A DNA stretch of 30,351 nucleotides from a virus: IMG/VR virus record IMGVR_UViG_3300007514_000048, positions 1-30,351 of that record; one strand, 5' to 3'. Below the pieces are notes generated by a model, which was given only the letters and a program-made list of their open reading frames with translations, was not told the DNA's origin and made no database searches. How positions within the stretch are numbered: the stretch's first letter is position 1; each line of letters opens with the position of its first letter. The position numbers and the translations under genes were made by a program. Positions 2,352 to 30,351 of the stretch are shown here, one piece after another.

Positions 2352-3403
2352 TATGTTTCACTCGCCTCATTATAAATTTCACTAACAAATTTTTTCAGTT
2401 TTGGTTTATCTAAATCTGTATTAATTTGGTCAATGTAGTTTTGTAAAAATGTCATAGTATCCTCACCTTGATCTAATATATTTTCTTTAACCGTTTCTGT
2501 AATATCTGTACCACCATCTTCAATAATATTAACTTCGTGTACATTTATTTCATTTTGTAATCTATCAATCATTCTATCAAACATATCTTGGTCTGTACGG
2601 TTGGTTACAAACACTTTAACAAAACAATCTGTATAACTTGTTAAATCTTTTTCATTATAATTTTCTTTTGTATCATCATAATTAATCTTTCTAAAAATTC
2701 TAAATGGATTTGCTACTCGTTCTAGTTCTCTTGTTGATGTATCAAAAATATGAAACCCTTTAGGACAATGGTAATCTGACCACATTATTTCATATTGAGT
2801 ACCTAGATAATAGATATGACCATCACTTGATTTTTTATGAAAGTGTCCTGATATAACCTTTTCAAATCTTTTAAATATTTCTTTTTCAAAACCTTGTTCA
2901 TTAACGTGTCCTCTATGCATTTCAAAACCTTTAACTTCTATATGGCCCATAAGAATCTCAGCAGTAGAATTATCTATCTGGTAATAAGAATCTTCCTCAT
3001 TGTCATCACAAATCCAAGGTACAAATAATATATCAAGACCATCAAAATTAACTTGTTGAGTCCTAGTATAAATTTTTGCGTTTTTGTTAATACTTAAATT
3101 GTTCATAGCATTTACTTCATTGGTATTCTTATAATATGTGTCGTGATTACCAATAATAATATGTGTATCAATACCTAGTTCTTCTAGTTTGTTCCAAAAT
3201 ACTTTTTTAAAATTGTGTGCTGTATTATGATTAATAAACTTTCTTCTATCTACCACATCACCTAAATGTATAAGTGTTTTAATGTTGTGTTCTATTAAAT
3301 ATGGAAAAAATACTTCATCATAAAATTTGTTTTGATATTTAACAAATGCTGGATTATCATTCCTACACCCAAAGTGAGTGTCATTAAGTAGTGCTATTCT
3401 CAT
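2351..3403 (-). CDS. 47: Recombination endonuclease subunit gp47 (Mre11/SbcD-like phosphoesterase)
   Basis: The nuclease half of the gp46/gp47 DNA end-processing complex, 350 residues, close to T4 gp47 (about 340). All metallophosphoesterase motifs are visible in order: DTH (D8, H10), GDVVDRR (D49), GNHD (N86-H87-D88), GHIE (H154) and GHFHK (H187, H189). These residues coordinate the two catalytic metals in the Mre11 family. The C-terminal part (about 230-350) would be the partner- and DNA-binding cap. The ATG overlaps the stop of the upstream oxygenase gene by four bases (ATGA), and the stop overlaps the next oxygenase start by one base. It is thus sandwiched between two 2OG-Fe(II) oxygenase genes in one translationally coupled operon. 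Confidence 0.97.
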   Translation of the reverse strand: MRIALLNDTHFGCRNDNPAFVKYQNKFYDEVFFPYLIEHNIKTLIHLGDVVDRRKFINHNTAHNFKKVFWNKLEELGIDTHIIIGNHDTYYKNTNEVNAMNNLSINKNAKIYTRTQQVNFDGLDILFVPWICDDNEEDSYYQIDNSTAEILMGHIEVKGFEMHRGHVNEQGFEKEIFKRFEKVISGHFHKKSSDGHIYYLGTQYEIMWSDYHCPKGFHIFDTSTRELERVANPFRIFRKINYDDTKENYNEKDLTSYTDCFVKVFVTNRTDQDMFDRMIDRLQNEINVHEVNIIEDGGTDITETVKENILDQGEDTMTFLQNYIDQINTDLDKPKLKKFVSEIYNEASET

Positions 3404-4035
3404 TTAGGTACCTCTGGTACATTTATAATTGACATCTTACCACCATCTAAAGGCACATAATAAAAATGTGTTATGGAAAATCTTCCTAATTGTTGACCTT
3501 TATCCTCTTCTTTCATATGTACCGTATCAACACTATGAGTTGCAAAGGATGGAAAGAATACAACACGATTATTTTTACACTCAATCGTATCTCCTATATC
3601 TTCTAAATGTAAATCTCCACCTGTAAATTTTTTTGGTTCTTTATATAAAAATACTATCTTCGTATAAACAGAAAAGTCCCAATGTCCTTTATAAAAATCT
3701 CCATCTTCATAGTAGTTTAATAGTACGGTACTAAAATTTAAATTTCTCATATATCTAAAATGTATATCTTTTGTTAGATAAAGTTCTTTTGGGTCTGCTA
3801 CTCTAAATAATTTTTTAGAACACCAATGATAATCAATTGGTTCGTCTGTTATAAAACGACCTGTATTTTTACCTACAACTCCAGTATCATCAATTGCTCT
3901 TGATGTTTCTTCTGGACTTAATAAGTTTCTTCCTAATCTTCTTATGTCAGGCCAGATATGACTTAATTCTGGTGGTGTAAAGTAGTTGTCTATAACAAAA
4001 TAAGAAAACTCTTTTTTATAAAATTTTATATCCAT
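3400..4035 (-). CDS. 2OG-Fe(II) oxygenase, prolyl-4-hydroxylase-like
   Basis: A classical iron/2-oxoglutarate dioxygenase core is visible: GHWD (His-x-Asp), distal His in FPSFATHSVD, and Arg in LGRFSITHF, preceded by NYYEDGDFYKGH, typical of prolyl-4-hydroxylase-like enzymes. Numbered from the longest frame (TTG at 4077), these are H132, D134, H181 and R199. The likely substrate is a protein or small molecule and cannot be read from sequence. The start is uncertain: no clear Shine-Dalgarno precedes the TTG, an ATG at 4059 or the ATG at 4035. I choose 4035 (211 residues) because it overlaps the end of a small membrane ORF by only ten bases and leaves the fold intact. It overlaps gene 47 by four bases. 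Confidence 0.83.
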   Translation of the reverse strand: MDIKFYKKEFSYFVIDNYFTPPELSHIWPDIRRLGRNLLSPEETSRAIDDTGVVGKNTGRFITDEPIDYHWCSKKLFRVADPKELYLTKDIHFRYMRNLNFSTVLLNYYEDGDFYKGHWDFSVYTKIVFLYKEPKKFTGGDLHLEDIGDTIECKNNRVVFFPSFATHSVDTVHMKEEDKGQQLGRFSITHFYYVPLDGGKMSIINVPEVPK

Positions 4036-4121
4036 ATCATTAATACTATCATTATGCATAGTAAGGCTATTAACCAAGGCAGGCTATCCATAAACAATTC
4101 TTTAATCCAAATCCACCACAT
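4026..4121 (-). CDS. Possible 31-residue single-span membrane peptide
   Basis: A small frame begins with ATG two bases after the TAA of the preceding oxygenase gene (TAATATG) and ends in TAA inside the start region of the next one. The product starts MWWIWIKELFMDSLPW and continues as an unbroken hydrophobic run (LIALLCIMIVLMIWI). This gives an aromatic amphipathic head followed by one predicted transmembrane helix. No good Shine-Dalgarno is present, but the tight fit between two genes suggests translational coupling. Small hydrophobic phage peptides can be membrane effectors or lysis-timing factors; no function is assigned. It could also be chance in AT-rich DNA, where hydrophobic codons are frequent. 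Confidence 0.45.
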   Translation of the reverse strand: MWWIWIKELFMDSLPWLIALLCIMIVLMIWI

Positions 4122-11228: not shown

Positions 11229-11873
11229 TTATAGATTTTGAAGCAACTTTTTGAACGCCATTGCTTTAGTTTCAGCAAGTCTTGTTCTATGTTCTTTCTC
11301 TAAAACTCTCTTCCATCCATCAACGCTTTGTTCACGTAATGCACCATTGTCCCATACCCACTCTTTTCCTTCCATAATACCTTCTACGAAAGCGTCTGGA
11401 GCAGATGGATCGGCAACAATGTCAGCAGCGGTTGCTAAATAAAAATCAGATTTCACATAGTTTGCGCCACCTTTATTTTCTAAAGTACCCATACCTCTTG
11501 AAGATACGCCCAATTGAGCGCCTTCGTCAATAAGACCTTTAACAATCTTACCATATGGGGTGTTCATTACTTTAGCTTCACCAATAAAATTCTTACCATC
11601 TGGATATAATTTTTTAACCATATGTGATACTCTTTCGAGGTTCACAACTGGTCCGTCAGGATGTCCTAACTCTCCAAATGCACGATTCTTATTAATAAAT
11701 TCTCTATTGTATCTTGAAACTTCTCTTTCCAAAATGTCTTTTGGATAAACTCTACCATTACGGTTCTTAATATCTGATTGTAAGAATATACCTTTAATCT
11801 TATATTCTTTTTGACCGTTCTTTTGTTCTACTAAGCATTGTGCGTTAGTTATCTCTTCTGATATAAGTTTCAT
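11229..11873 (-). CDS. 21: Prohead core protease gp21
   Basis: Serine protease of the T4 prohead (herpesvirus-assemblin-like fold, MEROPS S77) that removes the core and trims gp23. 214 residues (T4 212). Visible hallmarks are GIFLQSDIKNRNGRVYPK (29-46), a GELGHP segment with H71 and VSHM with H84 as candidate catalytic histidines, LGVSSRGMGT (121-130) with the nucleophilic serine, and DIVADPSAPDAFVEGIMEG (151-169). A late promoter and a GA-rich ribosome site (AGAAGAGAGAGAC) precede the ATG. Its substrates gp22 and gp23 follow directly in transcription order. Confidence 0.96.
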   Translation of the reverse strand: MKLISEEITNAQCLVEQKNGQKEYKIKGIFLQSDIKNRNGRVYPKDILEREVSRYNREFINKNRAFGELGHPDGPVVNLERVSHMVKKLYPDGKNFIGEAKVMNTPYGKIVKGLIDEGAQLGVSSRGMGTLENKGGANYVKSDFYLATAADIVADPSAPDAFVEGIMEGKEWVWDNGALREQSVDGWKRVLEKEHRTRLAETKAMAFKKLLQNL

Positions 11874-11907: not shown

Positions 11908-12300
11908 TTATCTAAATTCAACAATTATTGCGTAATTGTCACCAACTGCAAAGTTTTTAGTAGAAAACAACACATCTCCCGTAGGTGTTGTAGCGTTGTT
12001 AGGGATTGAATTACCGTCAGTCCTAAAATCCATAACTCCATTTCCACTTAAAAACAATGCTGTCGAGTTTGTAGCGCCTGCCCAAACTATCTCTACACCA
12101 CTTTTATTATTAGCGGTGTTAATTGAATAGTAAACTCTTGCTATAGTTCTATTACCATCTTCGGTCATAAAAGTTGTGCCTGAAGCGTCAACTTTAGATA
12201 CCAAAGTTTCACCTGTACCGTCTGAAAAGTTTGTAAACTTAGCTACATACTTTACTCCAGATGTATCTGTAATTACCTGTGAGGTTACTGCGTCTGCCAT
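11908..12300 (-). CDS. Putative virion structural protein, beta-rich
   Basis: 130 residues, not assigned to a named family. It starts MADAVTSQVITDTSGVKYV and alternates short hydrophobic strands with Gly/Thr/Asn turns, ending in DNYAIIVEFR. This predicts an all-beta domain without a signal peptide or membrane helix. Its position in the head-gene region, immediately upstream of gene 21 and its promoter, suggests a head decoration or accessory virion protein; that is inference. The ATG shares one base with the stop of the preceding membrane protein gene (TAATG). Confidence 0.72.
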   Translation of the reverse strand: MADAVTSQVITDTSGVKYVAKFTNFSDGTGETLVSKVDASGTTFMTEDGNRTIARVYYSINTANNKSGVEIVWAGATNSTALFLSGNGVMDFRTDGNSIPNNATTPTGDVLFSTKNFAVGDNYAIIVEFR

Positions 12301-12800
12301 TATTCTTCCTTCTTATGCTTTCCTAAAATTTCAACAATCTCCCAACTGCCGTCATTATAATGATGTACGTGAGCATCCACCAAATCACACATAAAAGCTA
12401 AACTCTCACCATCTATCTTATAAGTGATACCGTTTATTTCCACACTATCCATTTCCTGTGATTTATTTCTCCACTTTTTCTCAACCTCTCTTTTAGTCTT
12501 TAAGCAATCGCTCATACTATTTGCACCTTTATGGTCAATTAATGTACCATCAGCAAATACACAAACGGCAAAAACTACTTCCGATTTATGCTCTTCCTGA
12601 GCTGCTTGTTCTTCTTCGGTTAGATTACAACTATTAGTATGATTGTCTTCTCCACAACCATTGCAATTAGCTTCTGCTCTTTGTGAGTATAATAAAATAC
12701 CAAATACAAATGCAATTAAAAATATACCTGATAAAATACCAGCTAACCATTTAGTATCGCCGTTTCTAAATCCGATTTTTTCTATAAGTTCTTTAAACAT
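12300..12800 (-). CDS. Membrane-anchored Cys-rich protein with DCLK-x-KRE domain
   Basis: 166 residues. A short basic N-terminus is followed by one strong transmembrane helix (about 19-39, WLAGILSGIFLIAFVFGILL), then RAEANCNGCGEDNHTNSC, a cysteine cluster just outside the membrane. The C-terminal domain has VVFAVCVFADGTLID, SDCLKTKREVEKKWR and FMCDLVDAHVHHYNDGSWE. Paired cysteines suggest a disulfide-containing periplasmic domain if exported N-in. The DCLK-x-KR-x-x-EK motif recurs in the gene at 13847-14149, on the other side of the AapJ-like gene. The function is unknown. It begins eight bases after the AapJ-like gene with a good AGGAC ribosome site. Confidence 0.75.
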   Translation of the reverse strand: MFKELIEKIGFRNGDTKWLAGILSGIFLIAFVFGILLYSQRAEANCNGCGEDNHTNSCNLTEEEQAAQEEHKSEVVFAVCVFADGTLIDHKGANSMSDCLKTKREVEKKWRNKSQEMDSVEINGITYKIDGESLAFMCDLVDAHVHHYNDGSWEIVEILGKHKKEE

Positions 12801-12807
12801 ATTTGTC

Positions 12808-13842
12808 CTATCTTATTGGCGGAACATACATTACGCCACCGTTCTTCCAAAGATTATTTAAACCTCTTTCTAAAGCAAGTGGTGTTTGTGGTCCCACATT
12901 TCTTTCAAACGATTCTCCATAGTTACCAACTTGTTTAATAATATTGTATCCGAATTTCATACCAACTCCTAACATAGGACCGATATAACCTTCTTCACCC
13001 AAAATTCTTAAAACTTCTTTATTCTTACTATCTAACATACTATCTACATTGTACATTGTGATACCTGCCTCTTCAGCATTTATCATAATGAAATGTGTCC
13101 ATCTTATTATATCTTCCCACTCCTGGTCACCTTGTCTTACAAGTGGACCTAATGGTTCTTTAGATATAATTTCTGGCAATACCATCCATTTACTAGGGTC
13201 TTCGGCACCAGCTCTTGCTGAAGCTAAACCTGAAGCGTCTGTAGTAAACACATCACAATCGCCAGCAAATAGTTTTGCTTTTGCGTCTTTATTACCTTCA
13301 ACATAAATTGGTTTATATTGCATATTATTTTCTGCAAAGTAATCATTTAAGTTTAATTCACTTGTGGTTTCTTTTGTAATACATACAAACGCACCATCTA
13401 ATTCTTTTGCACTCTTAATATCCAATTCGGTTGGTATTAAAAATCCTTGACCGTCATAGTAATTAACACCTGCAAATTCGAACATCAAGTTAACATCACG
13501 ACTAATTGTCCAAGTAGTATTTCTTGCAAGTACATCAATTTCTTTTGACGCTAATGTTGGAAATCTTTGAGCTGCATTTAAACCTACAAACTCAACTTTA
13601 CTAGAGTCTCCAAATACACCAGCTGCAACTGCTTTACAGAAGTCAACATCTAAACCACTCCAATTTCCTGCGTCATCTTGAGCAGAAAATCCAGGTAGAC
13701 CTGCATTAACTCCACAGATTAAATAACCTCTTTCTTGTACGGTTTTTAAGAGACCGACTTCTTGTTCTATTTTAATACTCTTTGTTGTATTACAACCTAC
13801 TAAAAATAAAGCAACGAATAAACTCATTAATATTTTTTTCAT
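12808..13842 (-). CDS. aapJ: AapJ-like amino-acid ABC transporter substrate-binding lipoprotein
   Basis: Periplasmic solute-binding protein of the general L-amino-acid (AapJ/YhdW) type, 344 residues, full family length. The N-terminus is a lipoprotein signal peptide, MKKILMSLFVALFLVGC, with lipobox LVGC and lipidated Cys17; Asn at +2 predicts no inner-membrane retention. Family hallmarks include ICGVNAGLPGFSAQDDAG (42-59), WSGLDVDFCKAVAAGVFGD (61-79), the ligand-pocket segment LARNTTWTISRD (105-116), FAGVNYYDGQGF and TTDASGLASARA. No permease or ATPase gene is present, so it would have to serve a host transporter or another role. It sits in a late structural operon between genes 20 and 21. 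Host ABC binding proteins such as PstS are known phage cargo; an AapJ-like one is unusual. Binding-lobe motifs are intact. Confidence 0.92.
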   Translation of the reverse strand: MKKILMSLFVALFLVGCNTTKSIKIEQEVGLLKTVQERGYLICGVNAGLPGFSAQDDAGNWSGLDVDFCKAVAAGVFGDSSKVEFVGLNAAQRFPTLASKEIDVLARNTTWTISRDVNLMFEFAGVNYYDGQGFLIPTELDIKSAKELDGAFVCITKETTSELNLNDYFAENNMQYKPIYVEGNKDAKAKLFAGDCDVFTTDASGLASARAGAEDPSKWMVLPEIISKEPLGPLVRQGDQEWEDIIRWTHFIMINAEEAGITMYNVDSMLDSKNKEVLRILGEEGYIGPMLGVGMKFGYNIIKQVGNYGESFERNVGPQTPLALERGLNNLWKNGGVMYVPPIR

Positions 13843-13846
13843 ATAA

Positions 13847-14149
13847 TTAATCCTGTGTTAACACTTCTGTTTGTTTTTTCTTTTTCTTTTCAGTAAGCGA
13901 CTTCGCTGTACCACCTAATTTTAAACTACCTGATTGGTCAGGCATTTTATTTTTAATACTAATAATGTTACCATCAGCGTCTATTTCTGCCATAGACGGA
14001 CCACAAATAACTCTACGGCCGTCTTTTAATTTCTCTATTGCTCGTTTATCTTTCAAGCAATCCATTAATCCATCATACTTGATAAACTCGCTAGAAGTAT
14101 TGGTCACAACAAACATTGTGATAATGGTAACTAAAGTAGTTGCGTCCAT
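13847..14149 (-). CDS. Small secreted or membrane protein with DCLK-x-KR motif
   Basis: 100 residues, unassigned. A hydrophobic N-terminal segment (TTLVTIITMFVVTNTSS, about 4-20) could be a signal sequence or anchor. It is followed by DGLMDCLKDKRAIEKLKDG and RRVICGPSMAEID, giving two cysteines that could pair. The tail is Lys-rich (EKKKKKQTE). The DCLK motif matches one in the larger membrane protein at 12300-12800, so the two share a small domain and flank the AapJ-like gene. The ATG follows a clear AGGAG site, and the stop is four bases from the AapJ-like ATG. Co-expression with the binding protein is expected. Confidence 0.7.
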   Translation of the reverse strand: MDATTLVTIITMFVVTNTSSEFIKYDGLMDCLKDKRAIEKLKDGRRVICGPSMAEIDADGNIISIKNKMPDQSGSLKLGGTAKSLTEKKKKKQTEVLTQD

Positions 14150-14152
14150 ATC

Positions 14153-14602
14153 TTATTCTCCTGTTTTATATCCGTTCTTGGCTTCTCTAATTTTGTCCTT
14201 TAATTCCTCAATATCGGCTAAAGCCTTATCCATATCTTTTTGCAATCTTTCAATGTTAACTGCATTGTTCATCATATTCTGTAAATCTTTTTGAATTGCT
14301 TCCACTTGGCCACTCAAAAACTCAATTAGCATAAATTGCTCAGAATCCGCTGGCAAGGAACCCATATCCCCTCTTGGCCATTTGATTCTAAATTCGTTGT
14401 TCTTTTCTATATCTACTCCAAGCGCTTCTTCTGCTTGTTCTAAATCTTTTGTAAGTAATGTTGTATTAGTTTCCAATTTATTTAACCGCTCAATTACCCC
14501 GAAATATGCCCACACTCCGACAGCCACAGCCGAAATTATGGCAAGCAGGTTTTTCATTGGCATACTTACTGCCGATTCACTTGATATATCCAATCGTTTC
14601 AT
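14153..14602 (-). CDS. Membrane-anchored coiled-coil protein
   Basis: 149 residues. The N-terminal MKRLDISSESAVSMPMKN is followed by one transmembrane helix (about 19-38, LLAIISAVAVGVWAYFGVI). Two heptad-repeat coiled-coils follow (about 40-65 and 100-143), separated by RIKWPRGDMGSLPADSEQFM. This central motif looks strongly constrained, and I recall similar proteins in other T4-like marine phages without a function. A holin, spanin or virion membrane role is conceivable but unproven: it has a single span, unlike most holins, and no lipobox. A ribosome site AAGAAGG precedes the ATG. It ends three bases before the next gene. Confidence 0.75.
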   Translation of the reverse strand: MKRLDISSESAVSMPMKNLLAIISAVAVGVWAYFGVIERLNKLETNTTLLTKDLEQAEEALGVDIEKNNEFRIKWPRGDMGSLPADSEQFMLIEFLSGQVEAIQKDLQNMMNNAVNIERLQKDMDKALADIEELKDKIREAKNGYKTGE

Positions 14603-14621: not shown

Positions 14622-14870
14622 TTAACTTCTTGGTGATCCTACAGCGCTAGCATTGCTTGTACCACAAGTAATTTTATCGGAAGGTGCCTTCTCAATAATT
14701 ACCGTGTCACCATTTTCCAAATAAAATTGACCTAGTTGAGTATCGTCTGTATCTAACACAGCACCAGTCACGTCGGCTGTTGCTGTTATTCTTACAAACT
14801 GAGCAGACCCAATTGTATTAGCACTTGGATTTGCAACTACATCACCTTTTACTATAAATGTTTGTGCCAT
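14622..14870 (-). CDS. Small beta-rich putative structural protein
   Basis: 82 residues, unassigned. It begins MAQTFIVKGDVVANPSANT and contains FVRITATADVTGAVL and GQFYLENGDTVIIEKAPSDK, a strand-turn pattern suggesting a compact beta barrel or sandwich. There is no signal peptide or membrane segment. A GGAGA ribosome site precedes the ATG. Its place among genes after 20 suggests a small virion or head accessory protein; this is inference from context. Confidence 0.68.
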   Translation of the reverse strand: MAQTFIVKGDVVANPSANTIGSAQFVRITATADVTGAVLDTDDTQLGQFYLENGDTVIIEKAPSDKITCGTSNASAVGSPRS

Positions 14871-14879
14871 CTTTTTCTC

Positions 14880-15191
14880 CTAATTTCCTATTCTCTTTTC
14901 GATTACTTTATCTAATCGACCTTTAATGTTAAACAAACTTAAATTTTCGTCAAGTTCTTCATCAAGATATTCCCATATAGCATATTCATCACAATCAAAA
15001 GCCTTAGCAGCTTTCTTTACTGCTTCCTCAAAGTCTTTAACAACCGAACCAAGTCTAATTGATTCGTCTCTATATTCAAAGTCTTCAAATATATCCCTTA
15101 CGGCAGCTTTATATTTTGGTGAAAGATTACTATAAGCATTAGAATCAAAAAGATTCTTTCTTTCAAATATATTACTGACCTTCAGGTTCAT
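14880..15191 (-). CDS. Small acidic helical protein, possible prohead core component
   Basis: 103 residues from the ATG MNLKVSNIFERKNLF. It is mostly charged and helical (KAAVRDIFEDFEYRDESIR, EYAIWEYLDEELDEN). In T4 the interval between genes 20 and 21 holds the small core genes 67 and 68, and this gene and its predecessor occupy that place; homology is not established. A longer frame starts with TTG at 15218 and would overlap the previous gene by 47 bases. The ATG at 15191 leaves a 20-base overlap and is preferred, though its ribosome site is weak. Confidence 0.7.
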   Translation of the reverse strand: MNLKVSNIFERKNLFDSNAYSNLSPKYKAAVRDIFEDFEYRDESIRLGSVVKDFEEAVKKAAKAFDCDEYAIWEYLDEELDENLSLFNIKGRLDKVIEKRIGN

Positions 15192-15507
15192 TTGCAGCTT
15201 CTGGTTGTGGTGCTTCAACTGGTTCCGCTGGTGCCTCTTGAGCAGGCGGAGTTGGAGCTTCCAAATTCATTTCTGCGCCAGTAGTATCTACTACTTTATA
15301 TGGATTAGGGTCTGGATCTGCAACAGCTGGTTTCTCATCACTTATTGGCAAAGCCTCTCCTGTAAACATATTAGCAGCTAGATTCTGTCTTGCTGTATCT
15401 AATTGATCTCCTACTTTATCTCTCAAAGCATTTTTAAATGCTTCTCCAGCGTCGGCGTTATCGCCTGATTGTAGTTTATCAATAAAGTTTTTTACATTGT
15501 CTGACAT
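15172..15507 (-). CDS. Small acidic Pro/Ala/Glu-rich protein, gene 67/68-position candidate
   Basis: 111 residues. The N-terminal half (SDNVKNFIDKLQSGDNADAG through LDTARQNLAANMFTGE) looks like a conserved helical domain. The C-terminal half is a disordered acidic Pro/Ala/Glu tail (about 55-111). An acidic protein directly after the portal gene 20 fits the position of T4 prohead core protein gp67, but I cannot show sequence homology. An AGGAGATAA site formed by the end of gene 20 serves its ATG, so it is coupled to portal translation. Confidence 0.7.
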   Translation of the reverse strand: MSDNVKNFIDKLQSGDNADAGEAFKNALRDKVGDQLDTARQNLAANMFTGEALPISDEKPAVADPDPNPYKVVDTTGAEMNLEAPTPPAQEAPAEPVEAPQPEAANEPEGQ

Positions 15508-15515
15508 AATAGTAT

Positions 15516-17066
15516 TTATCTCCTATTCTTATTTTTACTTTCACCAAAGCTTGATGAAGCGTCTGGTGTTTGAGACTGGTCTTCAGGACTTGAAATTACT
15601 CCCTTATCAATCTCTTTCTTAATTTGACGGTCAATGTCTTCCATTTCTCTTTCGTTTTGTTTAAGAACGTGCTTTCTTAAATACTCAACGGAATAGAATT
15701 TACCTATATAATCTCTCATTTCATTTGCTAGAGTAAGTCTTTCTCTCATCATTTCTGATTGTTTCAACTCAGCAAAGTAACCGTCTTGTAAGAAATCATA
15801 ATTAAGATGTGGTACTATCATTAACCAATCATCTTCATTGCATACAGCTTTAAGTACCAATTGTGTATGTAGTAAATCGTTAAATAATTCAGTAAATTTC
15901 TTTCTTAATCTTTGAACAAATTTAGTAAATTTAACTTCGTCTCTTGATATTTCAGCAGTTCGTCCTAAATTAAAACCACTAGAAGCTTCTAATCTACTTA
16001 CTGGTACATTTAAACTTCTATAAAGTTTTCTTTGGAAGTAATCTAAATCTCCTATTTCTCCTAGATTTTGACCACCTGGTAAAGTTTCAATATTTGTTCC
16101 TCTACCACCTTCTCTACTTGGTAACCAAAAGTCTTCAAGCATAGACATATAATTTCTATCGTCTCTAATCTCTCCTGTACTTGCGTCATAGACAAGTTTA
16201 TTTCTATATCTTGCCATAACATCACGGAGATATTGCTCTGCTTTTACCTTCGGTAAATTACCAACATCAATTTTAAAAATTCTTCTTTCAGGTGCTCTTG
16301 CTATTCTGTATATAACAACAGCGTCCTCAATCATACGTAACTGATTGACAGGCTTAATTGCCTTATGTAAATATGATAAGACTATATTTTTATTTTGGTC
16401 TACAAGTCCTGATGGACAAAATGCAATAGCATCCGTTGCTATTTTTAGACCGCCTGTAGTTTGATTAACAACACCTTTTTCATTGAATATAAAATACTCT
16501 TCAAACTCATCTATAACACTTAATCCAAATGGTGTTGGACCGTCTGGTCTTTTCTTTCTGACTTCACGAATCTTTTTAATTTTTCGTGGGTCAATATATC
16601 TTAATTCTGTTATACCTTTGATAGGTGAATCTCTATCAATTATTTTATGATAATATATTCTACCATCAACATACCAACGTCTGTATATATCGTGTCCTTT
16701 GGTATGAAAATTCATAAGACGGAGAATTTCTTTAAATTCATCCTCTATCTTACGTCTTACTTCACTTCCAAATGGGATATTATCCAGATTTAATCTTACT
16801 GGATCTTTTAGCTCGTTTGCTACGATAGATTCATTGATGATATCCTCAATCGCCATATCACACTCGGGGTGTAGGGCAATTTCTCTATATCTTCGTATTA
16901 GTTCCTGCTCACTTTTGGCAGTACCTTCCATATCAAGGTACTGGCCAAAATAACCACCAGCGGAGATAACTTGTGTGCCATCATCCGCTTGTGGTACCGT
17001 GAAGCTTTGTTTTGGATCTGCTGTCGGTTTTAACCGTTCTATCTTAAACCCAAATAATTCAGCCAT
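15516..17066 (-). CDS. 20: Portal vertex protein gp20
   Basis: 516-residue portal subunit (T4 524); twelve copies form the DNA entry channel and the head-tail connector. Recognised by PQADDGTQVISAGGYFGQYLD, ELIRRYREIALHPECDMAIE, DIINESIVANE, the LRYIDPRKIKKIREV segment, RIARAPERRIFKIDVGNLPK, the GGRGTNIETLPGGQNLGEI loop and YFQRKLYRSLNVPVSRLE. These are stretches conserved in T4-like portals and used for environmental gene 20 surveys. AAAGGAG precedes the ATG, and a late promoter lies 28 bases before it. It heads the run of small and accessory genes down to gene 21. Confidence 0.98.
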   Translation of the reverse strand: MAELFGFKIERLKPTADPKQSFTVPQADDGTQVISAGGYFGQYLDMEGTAKSEQELIRRYREIALHPECDMAIEDIINESIVANELKDPVRLNLDNIPFGSEVRRKIEDEFKEILRLMNFHTKGHDIYRRWYVDGRIYYHKIIDRDSPIKGITELRYIDPRKIKKIREVRKKRPDGPTPFGLSVIDEFEEYFIFNEKGVVNQTTGGLKIATDAIAFCPSGLVDQNKNIVLSYLHKAIKPVNQLRMIEDAVVIYRIARAPERRIFKIDVGNLPKVKAEQYLRDVMARYRNKLVYDASTGEIRDDRNYMSMLEDFWLPSREGGRGTNIETLPGGQNLGEIGDLDYFQRKLYRSLNVPVSRLEASSGFNLGRTAEISRDEVKFTKFVQRLRKKFTELFNDLLHTQLVLKAVCNEDDWLMIVPHLNYDFLQDGYFAELKQSEMMRERLTLANEMRDYIGKFYSVEYLRKHVLKQNEREMEDIDRQIKKEIDKGVISSPEDQSQTPDASSSFGESKNKNRR

Positions 17067-17094: not shown

Positions 17095-17102
17095 TATTTA
17101 TA
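17095..17102 (-). promoter_or_regulatory. Late promoter TATAAATA (gene 20 operon)
   Basis: Exact late octamer on the minus strand (context TTCTATAAATATTAGG) in the 43-base gap between genes 19 and 20. It should drive gene 20 and probably the accessory block that includes the AapJ-like gene. Confidence 0.88.
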
Positions 17103-24503: not shown

Positions 24504-25193
24504 TTAAGCAGTTATCTGTATTTTTGGGAACAGATTATCCGTACAGAATAATTTAACATCTGGTTCTGGTAATCCTAGCGATAACATTACTCTAGGAGTA
24601 TGTGGATTTTGTTGTTGGTGCTCACAATAATAGTTTTGAGCCTCTATAACATCTTCCTCTTTTGACCTTCCAGCGTATTTTCCTATTTTTTCCAAGTATT
24701 GTACTAGATTATATGTAGCTAGACCACATACTTTATTCAATTCTTTTTCAGTATTAATGTTACCAGCTGCTATCATACCTTTACTGAATATCTTTTTAGC
24801 CCAATCTGGCAATTCTCTAGGTTTAGTTGGTCTATACCATTCTGTTTCGTTAACAAACCACTCCGTTAATTCGTGGTCTTTCTTTAATAGTGGACTGAAA
24901 TCGTGGAAAGCACCTGTGATTTTATTCTTACCAGCAATAACATCAAAACCATAAATTGGTCCGTCATTATTAAGATTTGGAAATAGACAAATATGGGCCA
25001 TCCAAAGGCCCTTTTGTTTTCTTGCGTCCACTATATCAACGTGGGCTCTTCTACACTCTTTAGTTTTCCAAGTCCTATTAGTCCAAGTATCATTATTAAA
25101 TCTCTCCATACCTGGTTCCGAATATTCGGTACCATACATATTCAAGATTTTTACTATCTCATCTGTAGTTTTTATTAATTTCTCCCAAATCAT
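24504..25193 (-). CDS. pcyX: Ferredoxin-dependent bilin reductase, PcyX-like
   Basis: Reduces biliverdin to a phycobilin using ferredoxin (family PF05996: PcyA, PebS, PcyX). 229 residues, the compact phage size. Conserved blocks: CRRAHVDIVDA (47-57), GLWMAHICLFPNL (62-74), PIYGFDVIAGKN (79-90), FHDFSPLL (96-103) and FCTDNLFPKI (216-225). H67 and D84 are 17 residues apart, like PcyA His88 and Asp105. Retaining this His favours PcyX, the marine-phage enzyme reported to make phycoerythrobilin, over cyanophage PebS, where I recall Asn at the site. The acidic residue near the C-terminus is D219. It overlaps the heme oxygenase gene by four bases, giving coupled substrate supply. The product bilin must be confirmed experimentally. 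Confidence 0.9.
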   Translation of the reverse strand: MIWEKLIKTTDEIVKILNMYGTEYSEPGMERFNNDTWTNRTWKTKECRRAHVDIVDARKQKGLWMAHICLFPNLNNDGPIYGFDVIAGKNKITGAFHDFSPLLKKDHELTEWFVNETEWYRPTKPRELPDWAKKIFSKGMIAAGNINTEKELNKVCGLATYNLVQYLEKIGKYAGRSKEEDVIEAQNYYCEHQQQNPHTPRVMLSLGLPEPDVKLFCTDNLFPKIQITA

Positions 25194-26181: not shown

Positions 26182-27197
26182 AACATTACCCCTCCTATCA
26201 GGATAACCATTGAACACCAAGTTATTAATGTAGTTAAGTAATATTTTAATGGTGTCTTAAAATAACCTTTACCTATCGCCAAGCATTTGTGCATTGGTGA
26301 TAATATATAACCACAAAAATCAACAGCAAAAAACCAAGGTAAGTAAGCAAGTCCATAGACACTTACTAACAATACGGTTATGGCTGCGAACCGTGAGGAA
26401 CTTCCTAATATGAAAGAACCTATAAAACTCATTAAACTAATTAACCAAAATCCTGTAGGTGATGTTATATCTAATCCTGAATTATATAATGTTTCGTGTA
26501 TGAGAGGAGAATAAGCTGTAGCGTAATTTGCCATTACAATAATACCAGCAATAAAACCTAAAAGTTTCCAATCTATATAACTTAATATTTTCTTATAATC
26601 AAAAGTACCTGTTACCGACATATAATATAATGTTAGTAATCCAAATACCCATAAGAAATGGATACCTGCCATAACACCAGCAATACCTAATACATAAGGC
26701 ACCACATATCTGGTTATTCTGCTTATCTTAATTTCTTTTTTAATTCCGTCTAATTCTATTCCATCTTCTTTTACAAAGAAAATTAAATAACCTAAAATAA
26801 AAGCAACCGAAACTGCAAGTAAAGGCCAAATAATTCCAAACCAAGCACCATAAGTTAAACCAAAAGCTGCCATAGGTAATATGACCGTCTTCTCTAATGG
26901 TGACCAAAAATAATAATGATGTGTACTTAAATAATCTATAACACCTAGTTTATGCCGTTCTTTTCCTCTAGGCGCCATACTATCTAATAGGCCTGCTGTT
27001 AAGGTGACTCGTCCTTTAATAGGTAAACAACCTGTTAAAGCACTTACTGAAGCTATTAATGCTTTTTTGGATTTTAATATTTTATGAAAATATCCATAAA
27101 AGTCTCCAAATAATTTATGGTCTTTTACTATACCTGCAATTATCATTATAAATGCCAGTAAGAAAAGATAAACTTGTCCTTGTATAATTAAATTCAT
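26172..27197 (-). CDS. Polytopic membrane protein, DUF401-like permease candidate
   Basis: 341 residues with about nine to ten hydrophobic helices spread through the chain. The first helices contain GQVYLFLLAFIMIIAGIV. The cytosolic-looking loop ALTGCLPIKGRVTLTAGLLD, followed by YLSTHHYYFWSPLEKTVILP, resembles the PIpGG...FRHiwEyfwPlyPg signature I recall for DUF401 integral membrane proteins. That match is from memory and needs a profile search. The substrate is unknown. It overlaps the upstream oxygenase by four bases (ATGA) and the DUF454 gene by ten, so it is part of the coupled operon leading into heme oxygenase. A transport role in heme, iron or bilin handling is a guess. Confidence 0.65.
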   Translation of the reverse strand: MNLIIQGQVYLFLLAFIMIIAGIVKDHKLFGDFYGYFHKILKSKKALIASVSALTGCLPIKGRVTLTAGLLDSMAPRGKERHKLGVIDYLSTHHYYFWSPLEKTVILPMAAFGLTYGAWFGIIWPLLAVSVAFILGYLIFFVKEDGIELDGIKKEIKISRITRYVVPYVLGIAGVMAGIHFLWVFGLLTLYYMSVTGTFDYKKILSYIDWKLLGFIAGIIVMANYATAYSPLIHETLYNSGLDITSPTGFWLISLMSFIGSFILGSSSRFAAITVLLVSVYGLAYLPWFFAVDFCGYILSPMHKCLAIGKGYFKTPLKYYLTTLITWCSMVILIGGVMLWN

Positions 27198-27805
27198 ATG
27201 ACCAACTTTGTTAAATCTGCTTCGGTTCCAATGTCTCCTTTAAAAAATGTATTAAAGGACATTGATACCCTAGGTGTATCAATTTCTGTTGTAGAAACTT
27301 CGTGTAATAATGTAGATGGAAATAAAATCAATCTACCTATTTCAAACTTAATAGCAACCTTTTGAGAATTGTAAGTATTACCTTCTTTGAATGCTGTTAA
27401 GTTTCCAAATACGGTATTAGTATCTCTATAAAATATTGTAGGTTGTCCTTCACCTTGATTGGAAGTACCGTGTACATATAATATAGCACTAATCAAACTA
27501 TTTGGATGGTAATGTGTATGATGTTTGGTAAATTTTCTGTTTATATTAAACCAAGATTGTGTAATATATACTTGGCACTTGTCATCTACACCTAACTCAT
27601 TACAAAATCTGTATAAATGTTTTTTACACCATATTTTTAATTTGGAAAATTGATGTTTGTTTAACATCTTCTTATTAGTAGTTGTGAAATTACCACCGTT
27701 ATTGGGGTGCATATCAATATCATCTAATACTTTTCTTTCCTCTACCGAAAAATCATATAAATCATCTGACTTATATATTGGTGTTGCAAATACATTTTCA
27801 ATCAT
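27194..27805 (-). CDS. 2OG-Fe(II) oxygenase-like protein (PF13759 type)
   Basis: 203 residues. It starts MIENVFATPIY, the usual opening of this phage family. The core has QSWFNINRKFTKHHTHYHPN, SLISAILYVHG, distal LILFPSTLLHEVSTTE (H168) and PRVSMSFNTFF (R179). H98-x-H100 is the likely proximal metal pair, followed by the NS-SaxlYv strand typical of the family. The substrate is unknown. It is coupled to the DUF6065-like gene by a one-base TAATG overlap and to the membrane permease-like gene by ATGA. It most resembles the oxygenase at 1665-2351 in type, but with a different N-terminal region. Confidence 0.82.
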   Translation of the reverse strand: MIENVFATPIYKSDDLYDFSVEERKVLDDIDMHPNNGGNFTTTNKKMLNKHQFSKLKIWCKKHLYRFCNELGVDDKCQVYITQSWFNINRKFTKHHTHYHPNSLISAILYVHGTSNQGEGQPTIFYRDTNTVFGNLTAFKEGNTYNSQKVAIKFEIGRLILFPSTLLHEVSTTEIDTPRVSMSFNTFFKGDIGTEADLTKLVI

Positions 27806-28422
27806 TATTTTTCCTCATCTTGACAAATCATTTCATAACTCTTTTCAGTAAGAGGTACAAGTTGACCTAATGGTGTTCCCGATTTAACGGTATGTTCACC
27901 TTCTAATATATGCCAATCTAATTGTATATTTATCTCTTTGCTTAACGTAGGGTCCAGGATTCCCATAACATTTGAAAACTCAAAGTGGTCTGGATATGTT
28001 ATAGGCAAAAATATAAATTTTAAACCTTTTGGTGCTACAACGTTCCAAGGTGTATGTATCTTAATAATACTCTTTAATGTATTTGGACTCCTTGGTATTA
28101 AACTCATAATATCATTTGTATGTGTATCTATTAAATTTCTAGGACCTATTGTCTCTTTGTTTACTTCCCATTTAAAACCAGGATTATCAGGCATTGTTTT
28201 AATTGTAAAATCAAACCAAGCACGGACAATGTAACCAGTTTTCATTAACTCAAACATTCCTGGACATCTATATGGATGGTCAAAATCTGTAAATAACTCT
28301 TTTACTCTTAAATAATCTTCCTTTGCTTTTTTAGTCCATTCTCTTCCTATTTCTTTTGCCTCTACTATAGGCATTAAATTAGATAGACCTTTTAATTTAG
28401 ATACAAACTTAATTCTTTCCAT
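27805..28422 (-). CDS. DUF6065-like protein next to a tryptophan halogenase
   Basis: 205 residues from the ATG MERIKFVSKLKG; a GTG at 28431 would add three residues. Conserved-looking features are HPYRCPGMFELMKTGYIVRA, KIHTPWNVVAPKGLKFIFLP, GILDPTLSKEINIQLDWHIL and EGEHTVKSGTPLGQLVPLT. I recall this layout from proteins labelled DUF6065 that often neighbour tryptophan halogenases and 2OG oxygenases; this needs a profile search. The second half (paired strands, with GTPLxQxxP like cupin turns) may be a beta barrel. It overlaps the halogenase gene by 14 bases. The function is unknown, but genomic linkage suggests it acts on the same substrate. Confidence 0.75.
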   Translation of the reverse strand: MERIKFVSKLKGLSNLMPIVEAKEIGREWTKKAKEDYLRVKELFTDFDHPYRCPGMFELMKTGYIVRAWFDFTIKTMPDNPGFKWEVNKETIGPRNLIDTHTNDIMSLIPRSPNTLKSIIKIHTPWNVVAPKGLKFIFLPITYPDHFEFSNVMGILDPTLSKEINIQLDWHILEGEHTVKSGTPLGQLVPLTEKSYEMICQDEEK

Positions 28423-29902
28423 ATGATTCACTTAAATATTCATAATGATTTTTAAAAAATAATTTTGCTTGTTCTACTCTATTATATTGATTAGCAATAA
28501 AATATTTGGCATACTTCTCTATTTCATCTGGTAATTTTTTAGAATTAAAACCTCCACCTGCGTGTAGCATTGAAAACCATTGTGTTAAGTTAAACATTGA
28601 GGAACTTCTATAGAAAAAAGCAGTCTTATTAATTTGAATATCATTTATTAATTGTTGAGAAGGTTGTGGTAATTGTCTTTTAGATTGATTTCTAATTTCT
28701 TGCCAAAACGGTGTATCATCTTTTGTACTATAATAATAATGAGAAAATATAAATGCAAGTATCTCATCATTAATTTCATTAAAGTAACCATTAATCATTT
28801 CTTTTGATTGCCAATTATTGTTATTTAATAACTCTACAACTGCTCTAACAATACTAGTAGTCCAAGTAAGATTATTTGCTTCTAAAGGTTCTATAAAACC
28901 TGCAGCTAAACCTACAGCACATACATTTTTTAAAGCTATATGTTTATGTGTACCTGCTTTAATATCAATATGTAATGCTGTAGATTTATCTTCACCAATG
29001 CTGTCTCTCAATTCTTTTTCTGCCTGCTCTGGTGTTATATGTTTACTAGAATAACAATAACCGTTTCCTATTCTTTCATAGGTTGGTATTTGCCATCTCC
29101 AACCAGCGTTCATTGTAATTGCTTTTGTATATGGGTGGCATTCTTCTTTAGGATTTGTATATGATTTTGGCATTGCAACTGCCTTATCACATAATAAAAT
29201 ATCTTTATATGGTATATGTGGTTCTTTTAACGCACCTTCTAAAAGCATACTTTTAAAACCAGAACAATCAATATATAAATCTGCTTTATAAAAATTACCT
29301 TCCTCATCTATTAGTGCTTTTATTCCATTCTCATCTACTTTGTAATCTGTTATTTTTGTTTCAACTAATTTAAATCTATTTGTTGTACTTCTATAATTTA
29401 CACAATGTTTAGCTAATACATCAACTATTTTTAAAGCATTGAAATGTACAGCACCATAACTTCGGTCTGCAATATTAAAATTAGTATCTAACCCATACCA
29501 TTTTGGACTTATATTCTTTTTTGCCATTTGATAAGAAGGTTGAAATCTTGTCCACTCTTCATTACTTTTGGAACCAAAATAATCTGTAATAAGTAAGTGT
29601 TGACTAACTAAAGAATTTTCTGGTGGTTCATTATCAACAAAGTATTTGTTTTTAGTCCAACCATCTAACTCAACACCATATTTAAAAGTAGCATCCGTTG
29701 CCGACATCCAATCAACTGGATGTAATCCACAATCATATAAAAATTGTGCTGTTGCTGGTTGTGTGCCTTCTCCAACTCCGATAGGACCTTGGCGTTTATC
29801 TTCTATTAAAGTAATATTAGTATCTGGCATTAAATTTTTCAACATATAGGCAGCCGTCAGCCAGCCACTCGAACCACCTCCAAGAATTATTATATTTTTC
29901 AT
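28409..29902 (-). CDS. Flavin-dependent tryptophan halogenase family protein
   Basis: 497 residues from the ATG MKNIIILGGGSSGWLTA. A longer frame to 29965 is rejected because this ATG overlaps the preceding stop as TAATG. Motifs: FAD-binding GGGSSG (8-13), IGVGEGTQPAT (41-51), the catalytic-lysine segment ATFKYG (K74, equivalent to PrnA Lys79), IDCSGFKS and the halogenase signature WRWQIP (268-273). Also present is AVGLAAGFIEPLEANNLTWT, the FAD/active-site loop. Such enzymes make HOCl or HOBr from FADH2, O2 and halide and direct it through the lysine to an indole. The natural substrate in phages is unknown; free tryptophan, a peptide or another aromatic compound is possible. No flavin reductase is seen in the window. 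Confidence 0.93.
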   Translation of the reverse strand: MKNIIILGGGSSGWLTAAYMLKNLMPDTNITLIEDKRQGPIGVGEGTQPATAQFLYDCGLHPVDWMSATDATFKYGVELDGWTKNKYFVDNEPPENSLVSQHLLITDYFGSKSNEEWTRFQPSYQMAKKNISPKWYGLDTNFNIADRSYGAVHFNALKIVDVLAKHCVNYRSTTNRFKLVETKITDYKVDENGIKALIDEEGNFYKADLYIDCSGFKSMLLEGALKEPHIPYKDILLCDKAVAMPKSYTNPKEECHPYTKAITMNAGWRWQIPTYERIGNGYCYSSKHITPEQAEKELRDSIGEDKSTALHIDIKAGTHKHIALKNVCAVGLAAGFIEPLEANNLTWTTSIVRAVVELLNNNNWQSKEMINGYFNEINDEILAFIFSHYYYSTKDDTPFWQEIRNQSKRQLPQPSQQLINDIQINKTAFFYRSSSMFNLTQWFSMLHAGGGFNSKKLPDEIEKYAKYFIANQYNRVEQAKLFFKNHYEYLSESYGKN

Positions 29903-30351
29903 TATTGACCTATCCCAAACATTTTCCGATTTTTTTCTAATACAAAGATACCTAACCCATTCCAATAATCAGTTGAATCTTCTATTTTTCCAGTTATCTC
30001 TTCTTTATATAAAACTTTATATCCCATTTTCTTAATACTTTCTAGTGTTGGCACTCTAACATTATCCCAATTCCAATCATCTACTATAAAAACAAATTGG
30101 TTATCCATTGCCGAATCCCATTTAGGTAATATATCATTATGAATACTATGGTCACCATCATAAAATAATATATTAGATTTCCAAGGTAATTGTTTTAAAT
30201 CAAACCCTAGAAAATCTCCTTGATAAATTTTAACCTCACTTTTACCAATATACTTTCTTAAATTCTTTACAAATATTTCCCTATCGTTTCCAACCTCTGC
30301 TTTTATATTCACTTCTGGCCTAGCAGGTGCTGTGTTCTTACCTTGCCAATT
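29902..30351 (-). CDS. SAM-dependent methyltransferase-like protein, 5' end cut off
   Basis: Open to the right edge; 149 residues are seen, starting NWQGKNTAPARPE. The first apparent start inside (GTG 30312) is not convincing because the frame continues past it. Features: EVKIYQGDFLGFD, SNILFYDGDHSIHNDILPKW, FVFIVDDWNWDNVRV and a C-terminal strand GLGIFVLEKN. The DGDH followed by a DDW strand is typical of Methyltransf_24-like class I methyltransferases; the glycine-rich SAM motif would lie beyond the window. It is joined to the halogenase gene by a one-base TAATG overlap. The assignment is moderate because only the C-terminal part is visible. Confidence 0.65.
   Translation of the reverse strand, partial: NWQGKNTAPARPEVNIKAEVGNDREIFVKNLRKYIGKSEVKIYQGDFLGFDLKQLPWKSNILFYDGDHSIHNDILPKWDSAMDNQFVFIVDDWNWDNVRVPTLESIKKMGYKVLYKEEITGKIEDSTDYWNGLGIFVLEKNRKMFGIGQ

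Follow-up and report, generated by a model that had tools for sequence, protein, structure and literature searches.

The window, by which we mean the whole 30,351-nucleotide stretch analyzed here (a 30 kb virus record, IMG/VR IMGVR_UViG_3300007514_000048), encodes an AapJ-like family-3 solute-binding protein (SBP) that is under strong purifying selection. Our preferred reading, which draws on the sequences and a structural model and which we hold with slightly better than even confidence, is that the SBP is a tethered late uptake protein that loads an Aap-type permease of the host. The phage would thus supply, late in infection, a periplasmic binder of amino acids or small gamma-glutamyl peptides that most copies would anchor to a membrane by a lipid. 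The tethered protein would feed the host's own Aap-type ABC permease, and the dying cell may thereby keep, or redirect, its amino-acid uptake during virion building. Direct support comes from the fold, the retained ligand residues, the purifying selection, the position in a late operon, the lipobox, the lack of a phage ABC permease, and descent from one bacterial source with later cassette-borne spread through phages; expression, lipidation, ligand binding, permease docking, and benefit are what we infer. Among the three roles that a first-pass annotation of the sequence had offered (boosting host uptake, competing with host transporters, and display), uptake appears the best supported, by analogy with the PstS of cyanophages, which would act likewise for phosphate.

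An AapJ-like protein among T4-type late genes

The SBP gene is a single open frame of 344 codons on the minus strand (13842→12808), and the extent given in the first-pass annotation for a full-length AapJ-like protein is therefore right. The protein scores 50.2 bits against the PF00497 SBP_bac_3 profile, for which the curated cut-off is 26.4. Its top sequence match is 4z9n, a solved structure of the AapJ type, over residues 31-344; according to its title, this is a Brucella ovis protein solved with glutathione bound. An AlphaFold model made from the phage sequences plus bacterial AapJ has a pLDDT of 86.5, and its top fold match is again 4z9n (VIA Z 41.3, with 51% identity over 316 residues). 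Assignment to the AapJ type follows from this full-length similarity, which includes the C-terminal region, and from the nesting of the protein within the AapJ tree.

Table 1. Features at and around the SBP gene, in window coordinates
Feature	Position	Strand	Evidence
gp21 prohead protease	11229..11873	-	PF03420, phrog_207
hA, resident at the insertion site, found in relatives without the cassette there	11908..12300	-	72% to Mosig, 55% to HTVC008M, 75% to 177 kb contig
hB, membrane-anchored or secreted Cys-containing DCLK-family protein	12300..12800	-	conserved downstream of SBP; alignment with hC and pelagiphage DCLK proteins
AapJ-like family-3 SBP, 344 aa	12808..13842	-	PF00497; 4z9n E 7e-105; AlphaFold model
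E158-T159-T160-S161 codons, ligand turn with both phage-specific substitutions	13360..13371	-	alignment of 66 phage and 184 cellular AapJ
Signal sequence, lipobox LVG-C17, Asn at +2	13792..13842	-	translation; pattern counts; N-terminal dN/dS
hC, small DCLK-family protein, hydrophobic N-terminus, seen only with SBP	13847..14149	-	locus survey; distance correlation; family alignment
hD, N-terminal membrane segment and coiled coil; frequent among pelagiphages, often within lysis regions	14153..14602	-	phrog_20984
hE, hF, hG, small genes after gp20; hG resident in relatives	14622..15507	-	hG 50% to Mosig; phrog_683 weak match
Late-promoter-like site GATAAATA, one mismatch, before hG	15513..15520	-	motif scan
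gp20 portal protein	15516..17066	-	PF07230 3.7e-180; 79% to Pelagibacter phage Mosig
T4-type late promoter element TATAAATA	17095..17102	-	closest exact site upstream of SBP; lies 36 nt ahead of gp20

The placement of the gene between genes 20 and 21 of a late operon, downstream of a late promoter, was also borne out (Table 1): gp20 and gp21 are T4-like by profile, as is gp22, another neighbor of the SBP. We counted the late-promoter word TATAAATA on both strands of the window and in shuffles. All six exact sites fall on the coding strand, each directly upstream of late genes, and the other strand has none. The bare count is not above that in the shuffles (5.6), so the signal rests on position and strand. 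Host contamination, which the first-pass annotation had raised as a possible objection, is ruled out, with T4 core genes flanking the SBP here and dozens of independent phage contigs carrying it beside phage genes. Among cultured phages there is no close homologue (best identity, 27%), and a search of the PMC literature found no report of a phage AapJ, which is weak evidence of absence.

The window also carries other genes. A tryptophan-halogenase-like protein (28409-29965; phrog_2928, E 4e-98) has a homologue in HTVC008M that precedes gp17, three 2OG-Fe(II) oxygenase genes (1665-2351, 3400-4077, and 27194-27805) are spread over the late and replication regions, and a ferredoxin-oxidoreductase-like protein (24504-25193; phrog_7278) lies beside gp13, with a 72% counterpart in the 177 kb relative.

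Ligand pocket, predicted tether, and selection

By alignment to the HisJ/LAO scheme, we take the SBP ligand residues to be N108, T110, R115, T160, and D202. These five never vary among the 66 phage copies and hardly do so among the 184 cellular AapJ; the wider set R107, N108, T109, T110, W111, R115, T159, T160, and D202 is likewise kept in 66/66 phage copies. The earlier description of the pocket motifs as intact holds for these residues but needs qualifying beside the conserved TT turn, which E158 and S161 bracket. At position 158, Gly is invariant in cells and 65 of the 66 phage copies have Glu; at position 161, an equally invariant Thr is Ser in every phage copy. With G120 -> M and P275 -> K, they make up four positions at which the phage proteins depart from (nearly) fixed cellular residues. 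The E158/S161 pair suggests a ligand range retuned since capture. However, the ligand carboxylate is normally held by the very turn in which G158 -> E lies, and this change could make amino-acid binding weaker, a point against the uptake reading.

The N-terminus of the SBP holds the lipobox MKKILMSLFVALFLVGC-N, just as first described (LVGC at residues 14-17, Asn at +2); our pattern was [LVI][ASTVI][GAS]C after a positively charged, hydrophobic leader. It occurs in 35 of the 47 distinct copies from phages but in 0/153 distinct cellular AapJ, in keeping with the earlier statement that AapJ is normally soluble. In most copies, then, the SBP is predicted to be lipid-anchored to a membrane, and its cellular kin are not. 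The 18 of 65 full-length phage copies without a lipobox fall on two tree branches and have a long hydrophobic N-terminus instead, which could serve as an uncleaved anchor, although AVA/VSG sites in these copies could be cleaved. Across 59 distinct phage copies, dN/dS is 0.145 for the mature part versus 0.74 for the first 30 residues. The low value for the mature part indicates that the SBP is in use and not decaying, and it rules out a pseudogene.

Two other roles bear on the anchor. Under the E. coli lipoprotein rule, a +2 residue other than Asp favors the outer membrane, and in the phage copies +2 is never Asp. Taken with the place of the SBP among head genes in the window, this could mean that the lipoprotein ends up on the outer membrane or in virions. 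We consider such display very improbable, given that the cassette has no fixed link to head genes, with most copies lying elsewhere, and that the lipobox is missing from the copies just described. Alternatively, a tethered SBP might crowd or block uptake proteins of the host, whether the Aap permease or others, leaving the cell starved of further uptake or an envelope entry route shut to other phages. The phage-specific surface and pocket changes and the long stem of the phage clade (0.59 changes per site) would fit a competitor or exclusion factor of this kind, and a lipid anchor would concentrate it at the membrane. A plain blocker, however, has no need of ligand residues, yet these are strongly constrained, and Aap components are not known to be phage receptors; we regard this role as improbable.

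The uptake reading depends on a permease from the host. The absence of a phage permease from the window, reported in the first-pass annotation, extends to 16 related phage records: BPD_transp_1 was not found in any of the 17, which include contigs of 177 and 171 kb and most of which are incomplete. The SBP is thus not accompanied by an AapQMP permease/ATPase operon, and we call it AapJ-like rather than part of a complete Aap system. In cells, a permease-like frame, judged by eye, directly follows aapJ at the loci of family A, family B, and SAR11. A phage-borne permease gene of another kind is present on L058 (7618-9057; also on L056, L057, and L060), where the cassette is followed by a full-length TctA (PF01970, E 2e-96). 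TctC- and TctB-like genes near it on the same four contigs were recognized by eye only, and the label TctC for a 380-aa protein of L058 was dropped, as it has no Pfam or PHROG match.

A relocatable cassette and its neighbors

Ninety-one viral-contig loci match the SBP, and the best 80 of these, in which several contigs may be one phage, were surveyed. Most of those that reach far enough have the gene order hD-hC-SBP-hB, and the phages are uncultured and marine. Wherever a contig continues beyond hC, the SBP follows, with no exception. The correlation of distances with those of the SBP is 0.77 for hC, 0.52 for hD, and 0.36 for hB; on these values, which are raw and come from related sequences, hC and the SBP are the tightest pair. 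In an alignment, hC, hB, and the DCLK proteins all have the same pair of invariant cysteines and the same K/R motif. hD is present in 45 phage records, 40 of them named Pelagibacter phages, and its neighbors often include endolysin (HTVC010P, HTVC027P) or, by PHROG, spanins. Both hD and DCLK-type proteins are also found where there is no SBP.

The cassette occupies at least four genomic positions. Among the best 80 of 91 loci, about a dozen have it between gp20 and gp21, 32 after a 107-aa protein with two TM segments, 13 after an Rz/Rz1-like spanin pair, and 4 beside terminase and TctA; 19 could not be placed by context. Between gp20 and gp21, Mosig and HTVC008M have hG and hA but no cassette. 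The 177 kb contig has the order gp20-hG-hA-gp21 with only about 0.5 kb from hG to hA, and its cassette is roughly 100 kb off; in the 171 kb contig, the interval is again without the cassette, which is over 100 kb away. With the same interval empty and the cassette elsewhere in related phages, we conclude that the cassette has moved between positions. The SBP thus belongs to a relocatable cassette of envelope proteins and is not tied to genes 20 and 21.

Other cargo is found at related loci. An OpuAC-type (glycine-betaine) binding protein adjoins hD in loci without the SBP (L208:6299-7309, L309:724-1722), a periplasmic thioredoxin-like protein (PF13098) takes the cargo position at L207:6317-6685, and further hD loci without the SBP have secreted proteins without known identity. 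CsgG/CsgF lie downstream of the SBP cassette in some loci (L181:8936-9922, L394:7487-7951). The region acts as an envelope-cargo site, often close to lysis genes. OpuAC-type proteins, a second and unrelated SBP family at a similar site, were also seen beside hD in L306, L310, and L311.

The strict hC pairing and the frequent lysis-gene neighbors are unexplained by simple uptake, and they make a lysis-linked sensor the most interesting rival. The SBP might work with hC, hB, and hD in an inner-membrane/periplasm apparatus that ends infection, for example as a nutrient sensor tuning the timing of lysis, with hD or hC, not a permease, reading the ligand-induced closure. That hC is never without the SBP and co-varies with it, that hD in pelagiphages belongs to the lysis region, that the Rz/Rz1-like pair directly precedes the 13 loci counted above, and that tethering is phage-specific all speak for such a module. 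Nevertheless, hD and DCLK proteins are widespread without any SBP, which makes the SBP dispensable for lysis; no spanin or endolysin is adjacent to it in the window, and the unrelated cargo at other hD loci (OpuAC, thioredoxin, curli genes) is as expected of a cargo site. We judge a lysis-module role unlikely. Its fuller form, that hD-hC-SBP-hB is a nutrient-sensing envelope module in which a captured receptor, rebuilt as a tethered sensor whose ligand choice has changed, informs hC/hD of periplasmic amino acids and sets lysis timing with no transport, we judge quite unlikely. The SBP is not itself an Rz1-type o-spanin: it is a 344 aa protein with an SBP fold, and the spanin loci have their own o-spanin-like gene.

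Origin, host, and relation to known systems

A maximum-likelihood tree covering 90 proteins groups the phage copies in a single clade (100/100), which sits on the 0.59 stem and is sister (100/96) to the AapJ of family A. These are small-genome alphaproteobacteria (0.9-1.6 Mb), 84 of 110 of which are matched by the phage AapJ profile. The best family A AapJ is 61% identical to the window SBP, compared with 47-53% for SAR11-family AapJ. The first-pass annotation had suggested comparison with SAR11; its AapJ stands elsewhere in the tree, apart from the phage clade, and is ruled out as the source. The SAR11 label, of which we are moderately sure, comes from an exact match to the 16S probe target SAR11-542R (hits in G231 and G321); family A may, at a guess, be HIMB59/AEGEAN-169-like. 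The tree points to a single bacterial origin of the SBP long ago, followed by spread among phages in the cassette.

The phage relatives (Mosig, HTVC008M) and the hD neighbor point to Pelagibacter-type hosts. SAR11 is the presumed host, yet the nearest cellular AapJ comes from another group, so the fit of the SBP to a host permease is putative, which counts against uptake. Either the true host would be a family A-type bacterium, or the gene would have been captured from one before a change of host. The phage pieces gave no tRNAs for host matching and tmRNAs only; two large relatives have permuted tmRNA genes with differing tag peptides (L519:871-1197; L521:3618-3941), which could help name the host.

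Known phage-encoded binding proteins are mainly of the phosphate type (PstS). An amino-acid-type SBP that is probably anchored, of single origin, strongly selected, and shared by uncultured marine T4-like phages suggests that nitrogen and carbon uptake is also seized in ocean infection, and that phages with the SBP may steer the feeding of the dying host. The cassette offers a concrete, testable set: one captured receptor, a strict partner in hC, two diagnostic pocket changes, and alternative OpuAC-type cargo at related hD loci.

Of the known systems, the general L-amino-acid binding protein AapJ of Alphaproteobacteria (4z9n) shares with the SBP its length class, C-terminal extension, fold, and catalogued ligand residues. 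The phages differ in having no permease genes, in the lipobox of most copies, and in E158, S161, M120, and K275, which stand in place of the (nearly) fixed G, T, G, and P of cells. Bug/TTT-type proteins annotated in uncultured Caudovirales (BFVD) are also a phage-borne type II binding-protein fold, but the similarity is remote (about 7-13% identity) and the transporter class differs. The curli genes csgG/csgF of pelagimyophages, discussed as lysis-related (PMC9004378), are likewise envelope-directed cargo in relatives of this phage, although they encode an outer-membrane pore and no binding protein. A parallel in kind, a host-derived binding-protein gene in T4-like marine phages without its permease, is the PstS of cyanophages of the same family (Kyanoviridae), whose carriers are spared the delay of lysis that comes with phosphate starvation (PMC10976474). 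PstS belongs to another SBP family with another solute, and it was acquired twice in marine cyanophages with no conserved synteny (PMC10976474), whereas the SBP described here arose once and stays linked to hC in a conserved block.
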